From Bacteroidota bacterium (GTDB lineage: Bacteria; Bacteroidota; Bacteroidia; Flavobacteriales; Schleiferiaceae), in assembly GCA_024742495.1 (NCBI GenBank), contig JANSYJ010000003.1:62001-126000 (forward strand): DNA of 64,000 nucleotides, written 5' to 3'. The notes below the pieces were generated by a model. It saw only the letters and a program-made list of their open reading frames with translations, was not told where the DNA came from and made no database searches. Within the stretch, counting starts at the first letter, position 1. Each line of letters begins with the position of its first letter. This document shows positions 45,816-53,432 of this stretch, piece by piece. A program made the position numbers and the translations under genes.

Positions 45816-46487
45816 CTAAACCCTTTCAAATTGTTGTTTGATTTTCTCGCGATAAGATTGACCGATGGGTATCATTTGATCTTTTATTTTGATTTGATTC
45901 CCTTCCAAGTAGATCACCTTTGAGATTGAAATAATATAACTTTTATGACAACGAATAAACTGGGCGGGTAGTAGCGATTCAAGCCTTTTTAAAGTATCAC
46001 TAATGATAAGACTTCGTCCTTCTTGGAGGATGACCTTAACAAAATCGCCATGTGATTCGAGATAGCAAATTTGCCCGTAATCAACTTTATGCATGCGCTT
46101 ATCGACTTTGAGCATAATAAAGCCTGCATCATTCCCCGCTTCAATTTTTAATTTGTGAACTGCCTTTTCGAAGCGCTCGAAGGAAAAGGGTTTTAGAAGG
46201 TAATCCACGGCCTCCAATTCAAAGCCATCTAGGGCAAATTCGGCATAGGCAGTGGTGAAAATCACCTTTGGCCTATTAACCAATGTTTTGTAAAAATTAA
46301 GGCCTGAAATTTCGGGGAGGTTAATATCCAGGAATATCAAATCTACCCTTTGCTTTTCCAAAAATTCCTTGGCCTCTTTTGCCCGGCGGCAATTGGCAAG
46401 CAGTTTAAGGTTTGGGATTTCAGCAATGTAAGACTCAAGAACCTCTTGGGCCAGAGGCTCATCTTCTATAATCAAACAATTAAGCAT
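45816..46487 (-). CDS. LytTR-family response regulator
   Basis: A 223-residue regulator. The receiver (1-120) has acidic residues in LIIEDEPLAQE and phospho-acceptor Asp in LIFLDINLPEISG, with TTAYAEFAL and DYLLKPFSFERF. The LytTR DNA-binding domain covers about 130-223 (ICYLESHGDFVKVIL, FIRCHKSYIISISKV). It overlaps its kinase gene by 8 bases. Confidence 0.96.
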   Translation of the reverse strand: MLNCLIIEDEPLAQEVLESYIAEIPNLKLLANCRRAKEAKEFLEKQRVDLIFLDINLPEISGLNFYKTLVNRPKVIFTTAYAEFALDGFELEAVDYLLKPFSFERFEKAVHKLKIEAGNDAGFIMLKVDKRMHKVDYGQICYLESHGDFVKVILQEGRSLIISDTLKRLESLLPAQFIRCHKSYIISISKVIYLEGNQIKIKDQMIPIGQSYREKIKQQFERV

Positions 46488-47499
46488 TTCCTCTTATTCC
46501 TAATTCCACCTTAAACTCTTCTTCACTTTCGCTAATTCGAAGGTCGGCTTTTTCTGGATAAATTAAAGCCAGTCGCTTACGAACATTCTCAAGTCCAATT
46601 CCGCCAAATTTTCCTTTTTCAGGATCCTCGGTTTCACTTTTGTTATTGCTTATTTCAAAGTGTAAATCGCCCTTGTCAAGACTTAAATATATGTGTACGA
46701 AGTTGCCCTGATTGGACTTTAAGCCATGTTTAAAACTGTTTTCCACCAAGGGGAGAAATAGCAAGGGTGCAATGGCTGCCCTTTCATCATCAATGTGCTT
46801 TTCAAACTTTACATCAACATCTGGATCAAGCCTTAGCTTCTGTAGCTTTATATAATGCTCCAGGGCATCAAGCTCCGTTTGCATGGGTACCGTATCATCA
46901 GCAAGCTCGTAAATCATATAGCGCATTAAGGCCGAAAGTTCTAAAATGCTGCTTGGGGTTTTATCACTCTTTTTGAGGCTTAAGGCATAAATACTATTTA
47001 AGCTATTAAAAAGGAAGTGTGGGTTTATTTGCATCTTAAGTGCATTGAGTTCAAGGCTCAGTTTTTCCTTTTCTACCTCTTGCAGGGCATACCAGGAATG
47101 CGAAATCTTTAATAAGGTACTTAGCAGTAGGTAAACCGTGAAAATGGCAAAGAGCACCGTGGGTTCTGTAAAAGACACCAGGTAAAACTCTTGGCTTGCC
47201 ATTGGAATGATGTAATTGAACACAAGCTCATGTACGGCATAGGCCAATATTAAGTTTAGCAGACTGAGGAAGCCGAAACTTAGATACTTCTGCTGGCCTA
47301 GAAAGCGCGGTACCAATAGGCGTATATTGATATACACCAGCAAGAGCAGTGGAATGTGAAAAAATCCCGAGTAGATAAAGTCGATGAACTTTAAAAAATT
47401 GGATATTGAAAAGTAGCTCCCAATACCGTAGAGGGACAGGCTCCAAAAGGCGAGGTGCTGGAGCCAATTGCTTTTTAAAAAGCCAATTAGGTATTTCAT
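46480..47499 (-). CDS. LytS/YehU-type membrane sensor histidine kinase
   Basis: A 339-residue kinase with four N-terminal membrane helices (about 15-135). A coiled coil leads to the His_kinase domain with H in QINPHFLFNSLNSIYAL. An ATPase region follows (LFLPLVENSFKHGLKS, GKFGGIGLENVRKRLALIYP). It pairs with the LytTR regulator. The 4-base overlap with the upstream lipoprotein gene suggests that lipoprotein may be a sensory partner (inference). Confidence 0.95.
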   Translation of the reverse strand: MKYLIGFLKSNWLQHLAFWSLSLYGIGSYFSISNFLKFIDFIYSGFFHIPLLLLVYINIRLLVPRFLGQQKYLSFGFLSLLNLILAYAVHELVFNYIIPMASQEFYLVSFTEPTVLFAIFTVYLLLSTLLKISHSWYALQEVEKEKLSLELNALKMQINPHFLFNSLNSIYALSLKKSDKTPSSILELSALMRYMIYELADDTVPMQTELDALEHYIKLQKLRLDPDVDVKFEKHIDDERAAIAPLLFLPLVENSFKHGLKSNQGNFVHIYLSLDKGDLHFEISNNKSETEDPEKGKFGGIGLENVRKRLALIYPEKADLRISESEEEFKVELGIRGNA

Positions 47500-48131
47500 G
47501 ATTCTACTCTTTGATAGATTTCAGTGTCTTCAAACACCCTTTCATCCTTAGCATAACGTTCAATGAACTGCTGAAGCTCCTCAGTTTGCGCTGTGATTAG
47601 AATTGTACCATCTACCGCCTCATGCCTTAGTCTAATAAGATTACTATTAAATAATTCACTCAATTTTTGTAGGTCAAAGCGGGTGATTTTGAGTTCATTT
47701 TTTGAGGCCTCCAATTTGAAAAAGGAATGCATGCCCATAAAGTTGTCGCTCATGGTCTCGTTTCCAAATTCGGATGTAGGGAAAATATCAAGAAAATAAT
47801 CATCGCCCAATTGAACCATGTGCGCCTCATAGCGCTGTACTTGCGACGAAACCGACTGATCATAAATATCTAAAAAATACAGCTTTTCACGATCAATAGA
47901 ACTGCTCGAGCCATGAGGATGCATCAGCAGGCCGATACCGCTTTTGGTTTTTTCAATGTCGTCGGGCCTCTGAAATAACAAGTAAGAACCATCATCATCA
48001 ACCGCCCACTTCCCAAGGAGTTCCTCCTTAAAAACAACGGTTTCCTCCGAATAAAGTGGAAAAAGGGAATAAACACAAGAGCTTAAGCTTAAGCTGAGAA
48101 CTAGGATAATTAATGCTGCTTTACGTTTCAT
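47496..48131 (-). CDS. Predicted lipoprotein, first gene of the LytTR operon
   Basis: A 211-residue protein with lipobox SSC (LVLSLSLSSCVYSLFPLYSEE). The mature domain begins ELLGKWAVDDDGSYLLFQ, a pattern like lipocalin-type proteins that report envelope state. A TAnnTTTG element lies 18 bases upstream. ATGA overlap with the kinase gene. Confidence 0.85.
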   Translation of the reverse strand: MKRKAALIILVLSLSLSSCVYSLFPLYSEETVVFKEELLGKWAVDDDGSYLLFQRPDDIEKTKSGIGLLMHPHGSSSSIDREKLYFLDIYDQSVSSQVQRYEAHMVQLGDDYFLDIFPTSEFGNETMSDNFMGMHSFFKLEASKNELKITRFDLQKLSELFNSNLIRLRHEAVDGTILITAQTEELQQFIERYAKDERVFEDTEIYQRVES

Positions 48132-48252: not shown

Positions 48253-51057
48253 TTATTCTCCTACGCTAGAGCGCCGCACCTTTCTTGAACGTAACCATAC
48301 AAATAAACCAAAAAGTAAAGCGATAATATACCATTCAGGTTCCGACATGGCTAGGGTTTCCTCGCCGGCATCAAGCGATTTTTTACCCGCTAAAACTTCA
48401 GCCTGTTTCCGCTTAAGCATTTCCTTTTGCGCCTCGTTTTCTACCACTAAAAAGGAGGTATAGGGATTCATGATTTGCGCCTTAAAACTCTGCATAACCA
48501 GATTCCGCCAGTTTTCATCGGATAGTACCTTTAAAAGGCCCGCGCGCCATTGCCCCTCCATTTTTAATCCAGATAGCCATGCCTTAGTTTCAATTTGCTC
48601 GGCCTCAAGTCGGACTTGCTCGTCCACTAAAACAATGCTATTTTGTTGATTATCGGGGATATAATGAGTTCCTCCCTTTTGGTCATCATAGCCTAGGACG
48701 GGTAGAGGCTTGTTTGGACTTATCTCTTCATCCTGCGCTAAATAGGGCGATTGAATTAAGGAATGGGCGATGAGCGATTGATCAGCATTCAGGTGAAAAA
48801 AGTATGGCATCTCTGGGAAGCAGAATGAATAATCTTTATAGCCATTATCAAGCAGCGCTTCATTAATGCTATCACTTAAGACCACAAATACCGGAAAGTC
48901 ATTTGTCTGACGATTATAGTGTTTTATCAATTCCTGTTTAATGGCACGATCTAGATTAAATCCCCCAGATGTTTCTGCACTGGCAGACCAATCGTCATCC
49001 CAGTTAAAGGTTTTTACGTAGGCATTTACTAGACTAATTTTAGCATTGGGCATTAAGTTGGGATATTGATCTGCTAGCTGCTCTAGGTTTTTTTGATAGT
49101 GGCGATCTTCACCTCTACTTTGATCGAGGATAAAGTGGAAATAGGGCTTACGTTTAATTGGTCTTAAGCGCTTTTTATCTTCTGCACTTATAAAGGCTAT
49201 GCCCTCGCTTTCAATTCCCCTTGGCGGGTGCAGAGAATCATTCCCGAATTGGAGATCATAATTATCCAGCTTTAAATTAAAGGCGGTTTTATGTTTAAAC
49301 TCAATGCCTGTTTTCCTGATTTCGCCTCGGGCAAAGGGAAAAACCCGGAAACCAATATCACGAGCGTTTTTATAATATAAAATCCCGGGATCTCTTCGAT
49401 AGCTTCTTATTTGTGAGTAAATCCATAATGCTGCTTTTTTCTCGGCTAAAATTCCCATTTCCTTACGGTCGCCAACGTATAAATAATAGTCACTTATATA
49501 GCATCCTTCAGGCAGGTATAAATTGGTGGCATACTCCCTTTGCCATGATATCAGATCCTTATTGGTGATCTCGAGTTCGAGCCAAGAGGTCCAGCTTTCG
49601 CTGAGGCTATCATAGCGGCTGCTGATATTAAGATTACTAATCTGAACAGAATCGTTTACCGCCGTGGGAATAGAATTGCTGACGATAGGAACTTCATCAA
49701 AAAACACGCATTCCAACTTATTGATCTTGGCATCAGAAATCGTCAGGTTATCCAATACAAGCCAATTGTAGTAAGTACTGAGGTAGGGCGTTTGCTGTCC
49801 AAAAAGACCGAAGCCTCTGCTTTGTTTTTGGTCTTTTAGAACGGATAAGCTATGCTGAAGCGCCTCGGTGTTAATGGCATATTCCTCTTCAAAATTTGAA
49901 TTAGAGATATAATCCAAAGCTTCATGTAGGGTGCGTTTTTCAAAAAGTAAGTTGAGGCTAAATAAAAGCGGAAGAAGAATAAACCCCAGGCTCCCTAAGA
50001 TTCTGAGTTTGGATGCACCGAATTGAGGTTTCAGGAAATTAAAATCTTGACTTAACTGATGGGCTTGTAGGCCAAAGAGCAGGAGAGGTGCTAGCAGCAA
50101 TAGTCCCACGCCGAAAGCCAAAATGGCCATTACCGAAAAGGGTAGGAAGGGTAGAAATACGATGAAGAAGTAGGTGGTATAGGAGAATAGGGAGATACTT
50201 GCTGCGAATCGTAATAAACGTAGTTTGACATTTTTGAAATCAGGTAAACAAATAAGTAGCCCATTGACTATGGTTAAAATCGGAAACCAAACTGAACCAT
50301 AATTTCCAAGGATATGCTTATCACTTAAGTGCCAATTTTCAATTATAAATCCTTGATTTACAGCCAAGCCTAATAGGGGTAAAAGCAAGCTTATCGGGAT
50401 TTTCCAAGCTAGGCTATACTTCGACCATTGCTCGCCTCTATTAGCGAACAAAGAGAACAAGCCTCGAACTAAAAAGAATAGAAAGCATAAGGTGCCAAGG
50501 ATACTAAGTACCACCAAAACATGATCTTTAAAAAGATAGGAGGTGGGCTGCCAAAGGGGAATAATAAGCTCTACACTGAGGTAAGCCAGAATAGGTACCA
50601 ATGCGGCAAAGCCAAAATTTTTCCAAGTGCTGGTTTTTAAGTCAACCGGACTTAAATGCAAAACAATAGCCAGTAATGAATGAGCAAGGCTGGGCATCAA
50701 AAAGCTTCCTAGGTGGAGAATGGCAAAGTCATCCACCATCCAAGCGGGGATATTAAAAAGGCTAAAGTGATCGATGAAGTTATAGTATAAATAGGCAAAA
50801 GCTAGATAGGCAATAAGGGAAGAGAGAGCATAAATAAGGCTGATGCTTTTTCCTTTGGCAATGCCATAAAGGCTATAGCTTAAACTTAATAGGGCAAGTA
50901 TAATAAGCACCGAAGCAAAACTTATCCAGTAGCCAAGGCTTTCTTCCGGCAACATGGTTTTTATGAGCGTATACTCGGAGTACTTTAGAAAGAATAAGAT
51001 TCCGATGGGTAAACTATTAGCTAATAGTATCCATTGTGGCTTAAGTAGTTTTTGCAT
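48253..51057 (-). CDS. MSEP-CTERM-type multi-pass VIT-domain protein, exosortase substrate
   Basis: A 934-residue protein. The first 370 residues hold about eleven membrane helices. A VIT-like domain (about 480-620; YLPEGCYISDYYLYVGDRKEM, AEKKAALWIYSQI, DIGFRVFPFARGEIR) precedes a divergent VWA-like region (YFHFILDQSRGED). The C-terminus is a sorting signal: MSEP at 904-907, a hydrophobic helix (WYIIALLFGLFVWL), then the basic cluster RSRKVRR. That is the tripartite exosortase signal. The exosortase is encoded just upstream with a 17-base overlap, making this its dedicated substrate. The role after processing is unknown. Confidence 0.92.
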   Translation of the reverse strand: MQKLLKPQWILLANSLPIGILFFLKYSEYTLIKTMLPEESLGYWISFASVLIILALLSLSYSLYGIAKGKSISLIYALSSLIAYLAFAYLYYNFIDHFSLFNIPAWMVDDFAILHLGSFLMPSLAHSLLAIVLHLSPVDLKTSTWKNFGFAALVPILAYLSVELIIPLWQPTSYLFKDHVLVVLSILGTLCFLFFLVRGLFSLFANRGEQWSKYSLAWKIPISLLLPLLGLAVNQGFIIENWHLSDKHILGNYGSVWFPILTIVNGLLICLPDFKNVKLRLLRFAASISLFSYTTYFFIVFLPFLPFSVMAILAFGVGLLLLAPLLLFGLQAHQLSQDFNFLKPQFGASKLRILGSLGFILLPLLFSLNLLFEKRTLHEALDYISNSNFEEEYAINTEALQHSLSVLKDQKQSRGFGLFGQQTPYLSTYYNWLVLDNLTISDAKINKLECVFFDEVPIVSNSIPTAVNDSVQISNLNISSRYDSLSESWTSWLELEITNKDLISWQREYATNLYLPEGCYISDYYLYVGDRKEMGILAEKKAALWIYSQIRSYRRDPGILYYKNARDIGFRVFPFARGEIRKTGIEFKHKTAFNLKLDNYDLQFGNDSLHPPRGIESEGIAFISAEDKKRLRPIKRKPYFHFILDQSRGEDRHYQKNLEQLADQYPNLMPNAKISLVNAYVKTFNWDDDWSASAETSGGFNLDRAIKQELIKHYNRQTNDFPVFVVLSDSINEALLDNGYKDYSFCFPEMPYFFHLNADQSLIAHSLIQSPYLAQDEEISPNKPLPVLGYDDQKGGTHYIPDNQQNSIVLVDEQVRLEAEQIETKAWLSGLKMEGQWRAGLLKVLSDENWRNLVMQSFKAQIMNPYTSFLVVENEAQKEMLKRKQAEVLAGKKSLDAGEETLAMSEPEWYIIALLFGLFVWLRSRKVRRSSVGE

Positions 51058-51586
51058 GCCTAGGGAGATTTAGCAACCAGCTAAGGCCGAGATAAATTAG
51101 AATGAGGAAAGACAAATTGGTGATTACACCCAGCGCCTGGTGAATGATGGCATCGGAATAAGGCAACAAATCGTTAAAGACTGAAAGCTGGATAGAGACG
51201 CTTATTCGGGCAATATTTACCACTAAGGCTAGAAGATAGGAAAGCGCCAATAGGCCAATAAAGCTTAAAGCTTTCTGCCAATGATTTCGCCCGTAAGGAA
51301 TTACTAAAAAGCTGAGGGTGAGGTAACAGATCATCCAAAAATTAAAGCCCGAGCAAGACTTTTCGATATTAATAAAAAGATCTGGATGGATATAGCCCTT
51401 TTCTGGACTGTAAACCGCGAGGCTATTATAACTGAATTCCAAATAGGCGCTAATGGGACGAAGGAGAAAAGTCAAATCCGCGGTTTCGGATTGATGATAG
51501 AGTAATTTGGCGATTATGAAAATGCCAAGACTTAAAAAAAAGTAGGGAAGGTTTTTACGCTCCTTAAAAGGATTTTCCTTGGTCAT
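51041..51586 (-). CDS. Exosortase family protein (XrtK-like)
   Basis: A 181-residue membrane protein with about five helices. The exosortase catalytic residues are present: C78 in NIEKSCSGFNFW, R127 in LVVNIARISVSI and H149 in DAIIHQALGVITN. It should cut and process the C-terminal signal of the coupled MSEP protein. From the MSEP tail I favour exosortase K over exosortase N, the other Bacteroidota type with a VIT partner; this subtype is inference. Confidence 0.9.
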   Translation of the reverse strand: MTKENPFKERKNLPYFFLSLGIFIIAKLLYHQSETADLTFLLRPISAYLEFSYNSLAVYSPEKGYIHPDLFINIEKSCSGFNFWMICYLTLSFLVIPYGRNHWQKALSFIGLLALSYLLALVVNIARISVSIQLSVFNDLLPYSDAIIHQALGVITNLSFLILIYLGLSWLLNLPRHAKTT

Positions 51587-51753: not shown

Positions 51754-52257
51754 TTAATTTCTTTGGCAAGAGAAGCTAAAGTTAAGTTCCTGAACAAATT
51801 CAAAATCGTTTATCCATCTGACTCCCACGTTATCGCAGTCATTTGGGATTTTCACTTTGGATGAATTTGCTTGTGTAATTTTTTCCTCCTTTGTAAGTAC
51901 AACAGAATTTGTGTCCATCGCATGAGCAATGACCCAAGGGTCTGCTAAAGAACGATTCTTTGTATTGTCAACTATTTTTAAATGAGCAGGTGTCCTATAG
52001 ATTTCTTTTAAGCTTGCAATTACAGATTCATTTGCTTTTCTCACTGGAATTTTACTACCCTTAAGCCATGAGGCTAAATCATCCTCTGTTTTTACTACTT
52101 CTTCATACACTTCTTGGCAAATAAAGATGCGGCTTTCATCACCTAATCCATCTAACAACTTCCAATAGTCAGGACATAAAATAGGGGAATAATATTTTTG
52201 CCAAGCTTGAATGAGAACGTTTGCATCCAAACAATATGTGTCTGAAAACTCCCTCAT
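51754..52257 (-). CDS. DUF4411 (PIN-like) protein, probable toxin
   Basis: A 167-residue PIN-like protein: acidic residues in YCLDANVLIQAW, FICQEVYEEVVKTEDDL and SLADPWVIAHAMDTN match the PIN nuclease pocket, with VVLTKEEK after them. It begins in an ATGA overlap with the ImmA/IrrE-XRE gene. DUF4411 next to such a regulator is a recurring toxin-antitoxin-like pair on mobile regions. RNase activity is inference. Confidence 0.88.
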   Translation of the reverse strand: MREFSDTYCLDANVLIQAWQKYYSPILCPDYWKLLDGLGDESRIFICQEVYEEVVKTEDDLASWLKGSKIPVRKANESVIASLKEIYRTPAHLKIVDNTKNRSLADPWVIAHAMDTNSVVLTKEEKITQANSSKVKIPNDCDNVGVRWINDFEFVQELNFSFSCQRN

Positions 52258-53432
52258 TTATATAATTGTGCTTCTAGTTTCGGGAACTTATTAATTTGAA
52301 CATTTAGAAGCTTACTAGCAAGCGTAGGTTCTATGATTCCGCCCCTGAATGAGTCAAGTACGGTTTGAGTAAACAACCTACTATTTCTATTTAATTGCAA
52401 TAAAAAATAGTCAGGCCCGCCCGAATTTTCATTAGCCTTTTGTTTAGCTTTTTTTTCCGCTTCATTTCTAAGGTGTTCTTCAAAGTCGAGCTCGGCTTCA
52501 GCTTTCAACCTGCTGTATACTGGAAGCGTAATGATATTTAAATTTAAAGCTCTAACTAGAAATGAGAAAGAACTAACCCCTATCGACCTTGCAGCACTAA
52601 AGAGTCTCTTTGAATCCTTAAATGCACTTCTATCAAAGTTCTCAATGATAGTCTCGGGAATCAGAACATTGGCAGCAATTTCATTGCAAAACAATTCAAC
52701 CTTGTTAAAGTCAGAGGCCGTTTTAATATCTAGTTCCGTGCTGTTTGAAATTCCTGTTTCTGCAATCCATATATGAGCTAGTTCATGAACTAGTGTGAAC
52801 AATTGTGCGGTGCCCCAATCATCCGAATTAATAAAGACGAAAGGAGCGTAAGGGTCCGCAATAGCGAAGCCTTGTAATTCGCCTGAGTCAAGCCTAAGTC
52901 TTGAATGAATAAAACTAGTTCTGGAAATAAAAATCCCTTTGGCTTCTGCTTTTGCGATCCATTCTTTCATAGGGTTATTAGACTTATAATTCCCAGCTAT
53001 GATTCCTAAGGTTTGAAGTATGTCATTAGCTATTACCTTCGGATTATCCATTAGAGAGTACCTGCCCACAAAAGGAAGTTTATTTTCTCCACCCTCCCGA
53101 TTAGTTTCACTAATCCAAGACTGTTTCTGTTGAATCTCACGGATAATAAAAATCGAAGACGTGCTTAAAGATTTAGAGCCATTCTTGCGGAAATCTTGTA
53201 AAGGCTGAAAATCCCTTGGTATTTCTGGAAGAAACAGAATGGAGAATGGTCGTTTGTATGCCTTAGCTAAAATTTGTGCTTGCCTAATTGTTGGTTGTTT
53301 ATCTCCTTTTTCCCATTCTACCAGCTTGTCTACTGAAACCGAAACTTTAGATGCAGCAATTTCTTCGGTCATCCTTGCCGATTCTCTTGCCCATTTTAAA
53401 ACATTTGGAGTTATATATGCTCTGGTTGCCAT
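52254..53432 (-). CDS. XRE + ImmA/IrrE (DUF955) metallopeptidase protein, probable antitoxin/regulator
   Basis: A 392-residue protein. A helix-turn-helix (about 8-68; EEIAASKVSVSVDKLVEWEKGDKQPT) is followed by the ImmA/IrrE domain with zinc motif LVHELAHIW (HExxH at 216-220) and ELFCNEIAANVLIP as third-ligand helix. It precedes the DUF4411 gene with a 4-base overlap. Such proteins are antitoxins or protease regulators of the module. Together with the flanking gene fragment, this looks like a small acquired island between the exosortase and a glycosyltransferase. Confidence 0.92.
   Translation of the reverse strand: MATRAYITPNVLKWARESARMTEEIAASKVSVSVDKLVEWEKGDKQPTIRQAQILAKAYKRPFSILFLPEIPRDFQPLQDFRKNGSKSLSTSSIFIIREIQQKQSWISETNREGGENKLPFVGRYSLMDNPKVIANDILQTLGIIAGNYKSNNPMKEWIAKAEAKGIFISRTSFIHSRLRLDSGELQGFAIADPYAPFVFINSDDWGTAQLFTLVHELAHIWIAETGISNSTELDIKTASDFNKVELFCNEIAANVLIPETIIENFDRSAFKDSKRLFSAARSIGVSSFSFLVRALNLNIITLPVYSRLKAEAELDFEEHLRNEAEKKAKQKANENSGGPDYFLLQLNRNSRLFTQTVLDSFRGGIIEPTLASKLLNVQINKFPKLEAQLYK

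Follow-up and report, generated by a model that had tools for sequence, protein, structure and literature searches.

Exosortase K and its presumed sole MSEP-CTERM substrate in a Schleiferiaceae genome, and an exchanged sorting tail in Hymenobacter

A 64,000-nucleotide stretch of a Bacteroidota genome of the family Schleiferiaceae (assembly GCA_024742495.1, contig JANSYJ010000003.1, positions 62,001 to 126,000; hereafter the window) carries two overlapping genes, of which xrtK is assigned to the sorting enzyme exosortase K (XrtK) and msep to a VIT-domain protein with an MSEP-CTERM tail. The explanation that accounts best for the data as a whole, and that we consider probable, is that XrtK acts as a dedicated cysteine transpeptidase or protease for this single MSEP client. 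It is carried by the pairing of the two genes, an invariant Cys/Arg/His triad, a conserved motif, the lack of any detectable second tail in the genomes searched and a linked absence of XrtK and MSEP in one clade of Hymenobacter. A dedicated one-substrate exosortase system had already been noticed at this locus in a sequence-only reading made without database searches, and this observation was confirmed. The locus is a member of an already curated family and the pairing as such is not new. What the present analysis adds is a genome-wide search for a second tail, a structure-based anatomy of the substrate and the tail exchange in Hymenobacter; the latter is the new result, a natural experiment and a further case of tail differences among VIT/vWA proteins.

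One exosortase K and one MSEP-CTERM protein

Both genes lie on the reverse strand with xrtK upstream of msep, whose ATG start codon (at 51057) falls within the last codons of xrtK (end at 51041), giving an overlap of 17 bases. With 809 bits against TIGR04286 and 128 bits against TIGR04287 the two products score well beyond chance and far over the curated cut-offs (Table 1), which bears out the earlier description of the MSEP/exosortase pairing as a database family. The match of the MSEP protein extends over its whole length (residues 1-926 on profile positions 1-917 of 920), and the motif, the hydrophobic helix and the basic end of an MSEP-CTERM protein are all present. XrtK is placed in the exosortase K family by its score, its Cys/Arg/His residues and its MSEP-CTERM neighbour, with a peptidase or transpeptidase activity being predicted. 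The positions previously named for the triad (C78, R127 and H149) were correct, and all three residues are invariant in 46 aligned XrtK proteins, as are P44 and G153. The AlphaFold2 model of XrtK has a predicted local distance difference test (pLDDT) score of 92.9; no solved structural relative was found for it, either by sequence (E up to 1) or with Foldseek (E ≤ 0.001).

The window's own genome contains a single XrtK. The general exosortase model matches two places there, namely XrtK and G000:C21:90405-90671, which is a second exosortase of the XrtF type (129 bits, cut-off 90). The same genome holds one PID-CTERM protein of 60 amino acids (L254:305-487) on a separate contig. The codon pattern for MSEP occurs at 16 places in this genome, eight of which, including that in the window, spell M-S-E-P; none of the seven others forms a C-terminal tail with a membrane helix and a nearby stop, so that this search brought no refutation. 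A tail profile built from 40 tails was additionally run over 29 XrtK-bearing genomes (the genome of locus L054 was left out). In 28 of them the best match was the MSEP protein itself (frames of 828-980 amino acids) at E 3e-7 or better; for the 29th, Thermoflexibacter, whose protein ends in an MSEW tail, the protein was absent among the matches listed. The other matches listed begin at E 2e-4: two of them cover the whole motif (E 0.4 and 0.66), eleven begin within its final two positions (E 0.05 or worse) and the remaining ones start behind the motif, in the hydrophobic part. Inspection of the DNA at the 13 motif-touching matches and at the best match behind the motif revealed no convincing second tail in the 29 genomes, among the matches listed. 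Of the two candidates that span the full motif, the one in G431 is a frame of 64 codons whose end is hydrophilic, and the one in G436 runs antisense to a long gene. A Thermoflexibacter candidate with IEP, a hydrophobic run and a basic end is a 39-codon stretch with no frame of at least 60 amino acids around it, and no tRNA was found. All 14 weak candidates are taken as chance matches on the basis of their sequences.

Within detectable MSEP-type tails, a single protein per genome was thus found to carry the cognate tail, which is the feature by which Haft and Varghese (2011; PMC3237569) characterize a dedicated system. The notion that XrtK serves one substrate is therefore supported, as far as tail sequences can tell.

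Among 39 relatives the substrate scored over the cut-off in four and XrtK in three, and the fourth substrate-bearing relative (G008) has an adjacent divergent exosortase with 40 bits. As only three of the seven genomes of the own genus (G000-G006) contain the pair, its distribution is patchy. Across 392 genomes of the phylum the substrate was over the cut-off in five and XrtK in four, all of which are among these five; the fifth (G201) is a Hymenobacter with an exchanged tail and no XrtK over the cut-off. Below the cut-offs, the substrate model matched at E ≤ 0.001 in 83 of the 392 genomes, mostly with the VIT part only, and the exosortase model in 12.

A pattern-based scan of the genome collection, which was not exhaustive, yielded at least 65 loci. 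These are mostly from Bacteroidota, with a few labelled as Spirochaetes, Fibrobacteres, Lentisphaerae or Gammaproteobacteria, many of them metagenome-assembled genomes (MAGs). In 52 of the 65 loci an exosortase gene lies directly upstream, at a distance of at most 352 bases, and in 42 it overlaps the gene of the substrate body. The 13 loci without an adjacent exosortase comprise six at contig edges (L044, L074, L079, L084, L091 and L094), three Hymenobacter loci with exchanged tails and four from Cytophagales (L067, L070, L077 and L080), the latter having an XrtK elsewhere in the genome (102, 111, 121 and 92 bits, respectively; TIGR04287 cut-off 55). Tails were visible in 63 loci, with 56 being MxEP, one MSEW, three PID-like and three, all from Lentisphaerae, VPEPG or APAPSA. 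The MSEW tail (L067) represents one natural substitution of a proline that is kept otherwise, and the Lentisphaerae bodies (L091, L094 and L095) carry their VPEPG or APAPSA tails instead of MSEP. The body of a Marivirga MAG is 87-88% identical to those of two Flavobacteriia; such near-copies in distant lineages suggest a joint transfer of the two genes between lineages, although a contaminated MAG could yield the same picture.

Tail exchange in Hymenobacter

The substrate body was found in 41 of 120 Hymenobacter genomes searched, and all 41 were examined. XrtK is encoded directly upstream of the body in 15 of them, and all 15 tails read M[ST]EP. In the remaining 26, where no XrtK-like gene adjoins the body, the motif is replaced by P-[ILV]-[DN] without exception. 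The genus of G201 was identified as Hymenobacter through the three named loci L071, L078 and L090, whose genomes (G428, G429 and G430) have the same match places as G531, G457 and G551 of that genus. In one PID-type genome without XrtK beside the body (G492, locus L240) the body is, as the only one of the 41, in several pieces, the last of which stops right after the motif.

Enzyme and tail thus differ together: one Hymenobacter clade lacks XrtK and MSEP and has the PID motif and exosortase X, as read from sequence. Exosortase X scored over the cut-off in 25 of the 26 PID-type genomes compared to four of the 15 XrtK genomes (Fisher p 5e-6), and, among the 79 body-less genomes, in 54 at E ≤ 0.001 (p 0.003 against 25 of 26), with both tests treating related genomes as independent. 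A match to NF046081 at E ≤ 1e-50 was obtained with one protein per genome in all 25. The exception without exosortase X, G540, is 90% complete, 6% contaminated and split into about 600 contigs. Of four PID-like tails scored against NF046080 (cut-off 26), two passed (28.9 and 26.8) and two were below (19.6 and 14.0). In the 26 PID-type genomes the places listed for the general exosortase model all coincide with exosortase X places, and G540 has none listed. As this model misses two of the 15 XrtK genes (G485 and G543, both found only by a profile built in this analysis), the absence of a distant XrtK from these 26 genomes and from the 79 body-less ones is likely, not proven.

A tree of the body was calculated (quick LG+G4) with the last 70 residues removed, from 40 Hymenobacter rows (G492 was left out) and six outgroup rows that were not counted as a state; it carries composition and long-branch warnings for several rows. 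The tree requires one change only; a fully supported branch sets the PID rows apart from all others, and on this tree the exchange is a single event kept in 25 intact descendants. Since MSE[PW] is the tail of the outgroups, a replacement of MSEP by PID is the most likely direction. That the same protein bears the tail of a different sorting enzyme where XrtK is lacking suggests that the processing of this protein itself matters. No MSEP-to-PID exchange with absence of XrtK turned up in listings of the open-licence literature.

Domain anatomy and gene neighbourhood

The AlphaFold2 model of the MSEP protein (53 sequences) has a mean pLDDT of 85.7. Its N-terminal bundle contains 12 predicted helices of at least 13 residues, corresponding to about 11 membrane spans according to model and hydropathy, and is joined to the VIT domain by a helical linker in the model. 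The earlier description as a multi-helix VIT protein encoded by an overlapping gene proved accurate. The VIT label itself is weak by sequence (Pfam VIT 16.8 bits, cut-off 26.5), and the predicted structure supports it. A vWA-like domain (residues 635-786) comes in addition to the features named there. The best match of the model to a solved structure is inter-alpha-inhibitor heavy chain 1 (6fpy; Foldseek E 6e-9; VIA Z 9.9, 299 residues, root mean square deviation 9.8 Å), followed by single vWA and integrin I domains (Z 8-9).

The metal-site motif of a vWA domain, the metal-ion-dependent adhesion site (MIDAS), consists of DxSxS together with T and D residues. It is incomplete in this family: D645 is present in 52 and S647 in 50 of the 53 sequences, position 649 is variable, F replaces the threonine of GGT in 46 and D729 is kept in 33.

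The tail is as previously described, with MSEP, a hydrophobic helix and the basic cluster RSRKVRR following one another in the translation. In the model, a helix (875-890) is followed by a low-confidence stretch (900-908) and the last helix (909 to 933), and the motif, lying in the low-confidence segment, is probably flexible. In the 53-sequence tail alignment, which comprises MxE[PW]-tailed members only and leaves out exchanged (PID-like) tails, neither M904 nor E906 varies, 52 sequences have P907 and position 905 is S, D, T, A or P. Behind the motif the tail is hydrophobic and then basic, with a helix sequence that varies among the 53.

Table 1. Features of the xrtK/msep locus (positions in the window).
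Feature	Position	Strand	Basis
xrtK, exosortase K, 181 amino acids	51041..51586	-	TIGR04287 128.3 bits (cut-off 55); TIGR04178 31.5 bits (cut-off 23)
XrtK Cys78 codon, presumed nucleophile	51353..51355	-	invariant in 46 aligned XrtK proteins
XrtK Arg127 codon	51206..51208	-	invariant in 46 aligned XrtK proteins
XrtK His149 codon	51140..51142	-	invariant in 46 aligned XrtK proteins
msep, MSEP-CTERM protein, 934 amino acids, presumed sole XrtK substrate	48253..51057	-	TIGR04286 809.3 bits (cut-off 150)
N-terminal membrane-helix bundle, residues 8-385	49903..51036	-	model helices and hydropathy
VIT domain, residues about 470-605	49243..49650	-	TIGR04477 match at 493-584; inter-alpha-inhibitor heavy chain 1 fold match
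vWA-like domain, residues about 635-786, incomplete MIDAS	48700..49155	-	vWA and integrin I fold matches, Z 8-9
MSEP sorting motif, residues 904-907	48337..48348	-	M and E in 53/53, P in 52/53
C-terminal hydrophobic helix (909-922) and basic cluster RSRKVRR (923-929)	48271..48333	-	translation, model, charge counts

Upstream of xrtK, at 51754-53432 on the reverse strand, a gene for a DUF4411/PIN-like protein (167 amino acids) overlaps one for a protein with a helix-turn-helix (HTH) and an IrrE-like M78 peptidase domain (392 amino acids), which resembles a toxin-antitoxin pair. After msep, at 45816-48131 on the same strand, a probable lipoprotein of 211 amino acids, a histidine kinase (PF06580) and a LytTR response regulator are encoded. 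A conserved functional neighbourhood at the window was considered and rejected, with kinase and regulator having only distant look-alikes at a few loci and the lipoprotein gene recurring beside msep solely in the closest relative, L031 (51% identity). Near the pair in other loci, of which 53 of the 65 span at least 12 kb, an HTH_34 regulator (14/65), a protein of about 204 amino acids without a Pfam match (14/65) and a DUF4153 membrane protein (12/65) recur in varying order (L041, L042, L043, L045, L046, L054, L056, L059, L061, L062, L074, L075, L076, L086 and L087). As none of the compared window genes matches any of these three, no function is built on them.

Related systems, proposed processing and alternatives

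No essential difference was seen between the window locus and the curated XrtK/MSEP-CTERM pair (TIGR04287, TIGR04286); its genes are adjacent like those in most of the scanned loci. A second pair of the dedicated type in the same phylum was encountered in this analysis by sequence: XrtN and its VIT target (TIGR04476, TIGR04477), where, in the loci examined, an exosortase gene lies directly behind that of one VIT protein of related body, both over cut-off. The targets of XrtN match TIGR04286 weakly (84 and 71 bits); they differ by an AVPEPHEW tail and by an exosortase of 413-456 amino acids. Membership of the window protein in the XrtN system is ruled out by its 40.1 bits on TIGR04477 (cut-off 250). 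The earlier contrast with bulk PEP-CTERM systems is correct, but systems of this kind have been described: PMC3237569 uses the term dedicated system for a sorting enzyme with a single target. That paper also reports that the sorting tails of VIT/vWA proteins differ from species to species, and it describes the GlyGly-CTERM/rhombosortase system as well as a Gram-negative LPXTG sortase that has a single VIT/vWA protein as its target. These are alike in that a VIT/vWA protein is the sole target and that tails vary among homologues, whereas the enzymes are unrelated to XrtK and recognize other motifs. The exosortase X/PID-CTERM system (NF046081, NF046080), which by its co-occurrence would handle the same body in all but one of the 26 Hymenobacter genomes where XrtK does not adjoin it, is not dedicated: each of four such genomes counted has 3-10 PID-CTERM matches, with the body among them in three.

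Heavy chain 1 of the inter-alpha-inhibitor (6fpy) has the VIT and vWA folds in common with the MSEP protein, but is soluble, lacks a membrane bundle and uses other chemistry. As stated in PMC7170535, these heavy chains are covalently attached to a polysaccharide by a C-terminal peptide; this likeness at the C-terminus is an analogy and carries no evidential weight. For exosortases in general, PMC11980579 treats them, with archaeosortases and rhombosortases, as possible transpeptidases, and PMC10936215 links XrtF to colonisation and biofilm in Flavobacterium johnsoniae through mutants. In listings of the open-licence literature no relevant paper on MSEP-CTERM or XrtK by name and no XrtK phenotype was met.

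By analogy with exosortase biology, we infer a cleavage near MSEP by Cys78, followed by either a free end or a covalent partner. XrtK would be an inner-membrane cysteine transpeptidase or protease with one client. The latter would begin with about 11 N-terminal membrane helices and expose a VIT-vWA module to the periplasm; from there a flexible linker would lead to MSEP, behind which the final membrane helix and a basic end in the cytoplasm would follow. XrtK would recognize M-x-E-P where the last helix meets the periplasmic face; Cys78 would attack, assisted by Arg127 and His149, and the last helix and the basic end would be removed. The new end could remain a free C-terminus or be joined to an amine-bearing lipid or glycan. 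As the client would keep its N-terminal helix bundle, the cut cannot serve release, and it would rather free or re-attach the far end of the VIT-vWA module. Judged from sequence, a cut at MSEP is the most likely action of XrtK, perhaps followed by transfer of the new end to an acceptor.

In this account topology, cleavage, cleavage site, acceptor and biological purpose are all inferred. Several points weigh against it. The protein of Thermoflexibacter ruber (L067:9998-12883) has MSEW although the organism carries XrtK, on another contig, and in L095 (Lentisphaeria) an APAPSA tail stands next to a divergent exosortase recognized by the general exosortase model alone. The tail profile draws largely on the hydrophobic part, and substrates with another motif would escape it. 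The distances of XrtK and substrate correlate strongly (Mantel r 0.90 for 40 pairs; at most 0.31 in 2000 shuffles), but linkage of overlapping genes alone gives co-inheritance and this value is no proof of contact. As the Hymenobacter exchange is one event on the tree, the split into 15 and 26 genomes does not amount to 41 independent tests.

Among the alternatives, a role of XrtK as a protease only, trimming the last helix so that the VIT-vWA module changes its conformation or partner with nothing being attached, deserves serious consideration, though we would lean against it. The client is already held by about 11 helices and would not need a new anchor. Besides the pair, no gene family occurs near it in more than 14 of the 65 loci, so that in the loci around the pair no acceptor-making gene stands out, a negative that covers these neighbourhoods. 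Against trimming alone speaks that exosortases, archaeosortases and rhombosortases appear, according to PMC11980579, to leave their substrates anchored, possibly via a new C-terminal moiety. It appears unlikely that XrtK has further substrates with other tail motifs and that the system is not one-to-one. The variable position 905, the possible W in place of P907 and the one PID-CTERM protein in the own genome would fit such a breadth, yet XrtF is the likelier partner of the latter, and no XrtK over the cut-off occurs without an MSEP client in the 392 phylum genomes.

Whether the Hymenobacter pattern is mere drift, with the tail having decayed after the loss of XrtK and resembling PID-CTERM by chance, was considered as well. 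The single event on the tree, the two PID-like tails below the NF046080 cut-off and the one broken body (G492) agree with it; as P-[ILV]-[DN] is kept in all 26 genomes and exosortase X is more frequent in them than in the XrtK genomes and the body-less ones, we regard drift as quite improbable. Very little credence is given to the idea that XrtK assists in assembly instead of acting as an enzyme on the tail, which would then be a last membrane helix of the usual kind: it would produce the same tight gene coupling, but the Cys/Arg/His residues are invariant, as is M-x-E in an otherwise variable tail, and the absence of XrtK goes along with an exchange of the motif to the exosortase X type. Beyond the dedicated XrtK/client system preferred here, a more far-reaching and rather doubtful proposal is that C-terminal processing is the conserved function and the enzyme replaceable. 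Exosortase X would then have taken over by tail exchange upon the loss of XrtK, and the N-terminal helices would keep the mature protein in the membrane while its C-terminus would be covalently joined to a lipid or glycan, which would make it similar in plan to the inter-alpha-inhibitor heavy chains.

To our knowledge, the acceptor molecule of Gram-negative exosortases is not established. With one enzyme and one client, the XrtK system would be the simplest place to seek it, as the effects of an xrtK deletion should trace to one protein. Specific to this client are the roughly 11 helices predicted at its other end, so that processing would concern the end of the VIT-vWA module only. The Hymenobacter exchange provides matched natural pairs, with the same body, two tails and two enzymes, and supports a specificity between tail and enzyme.

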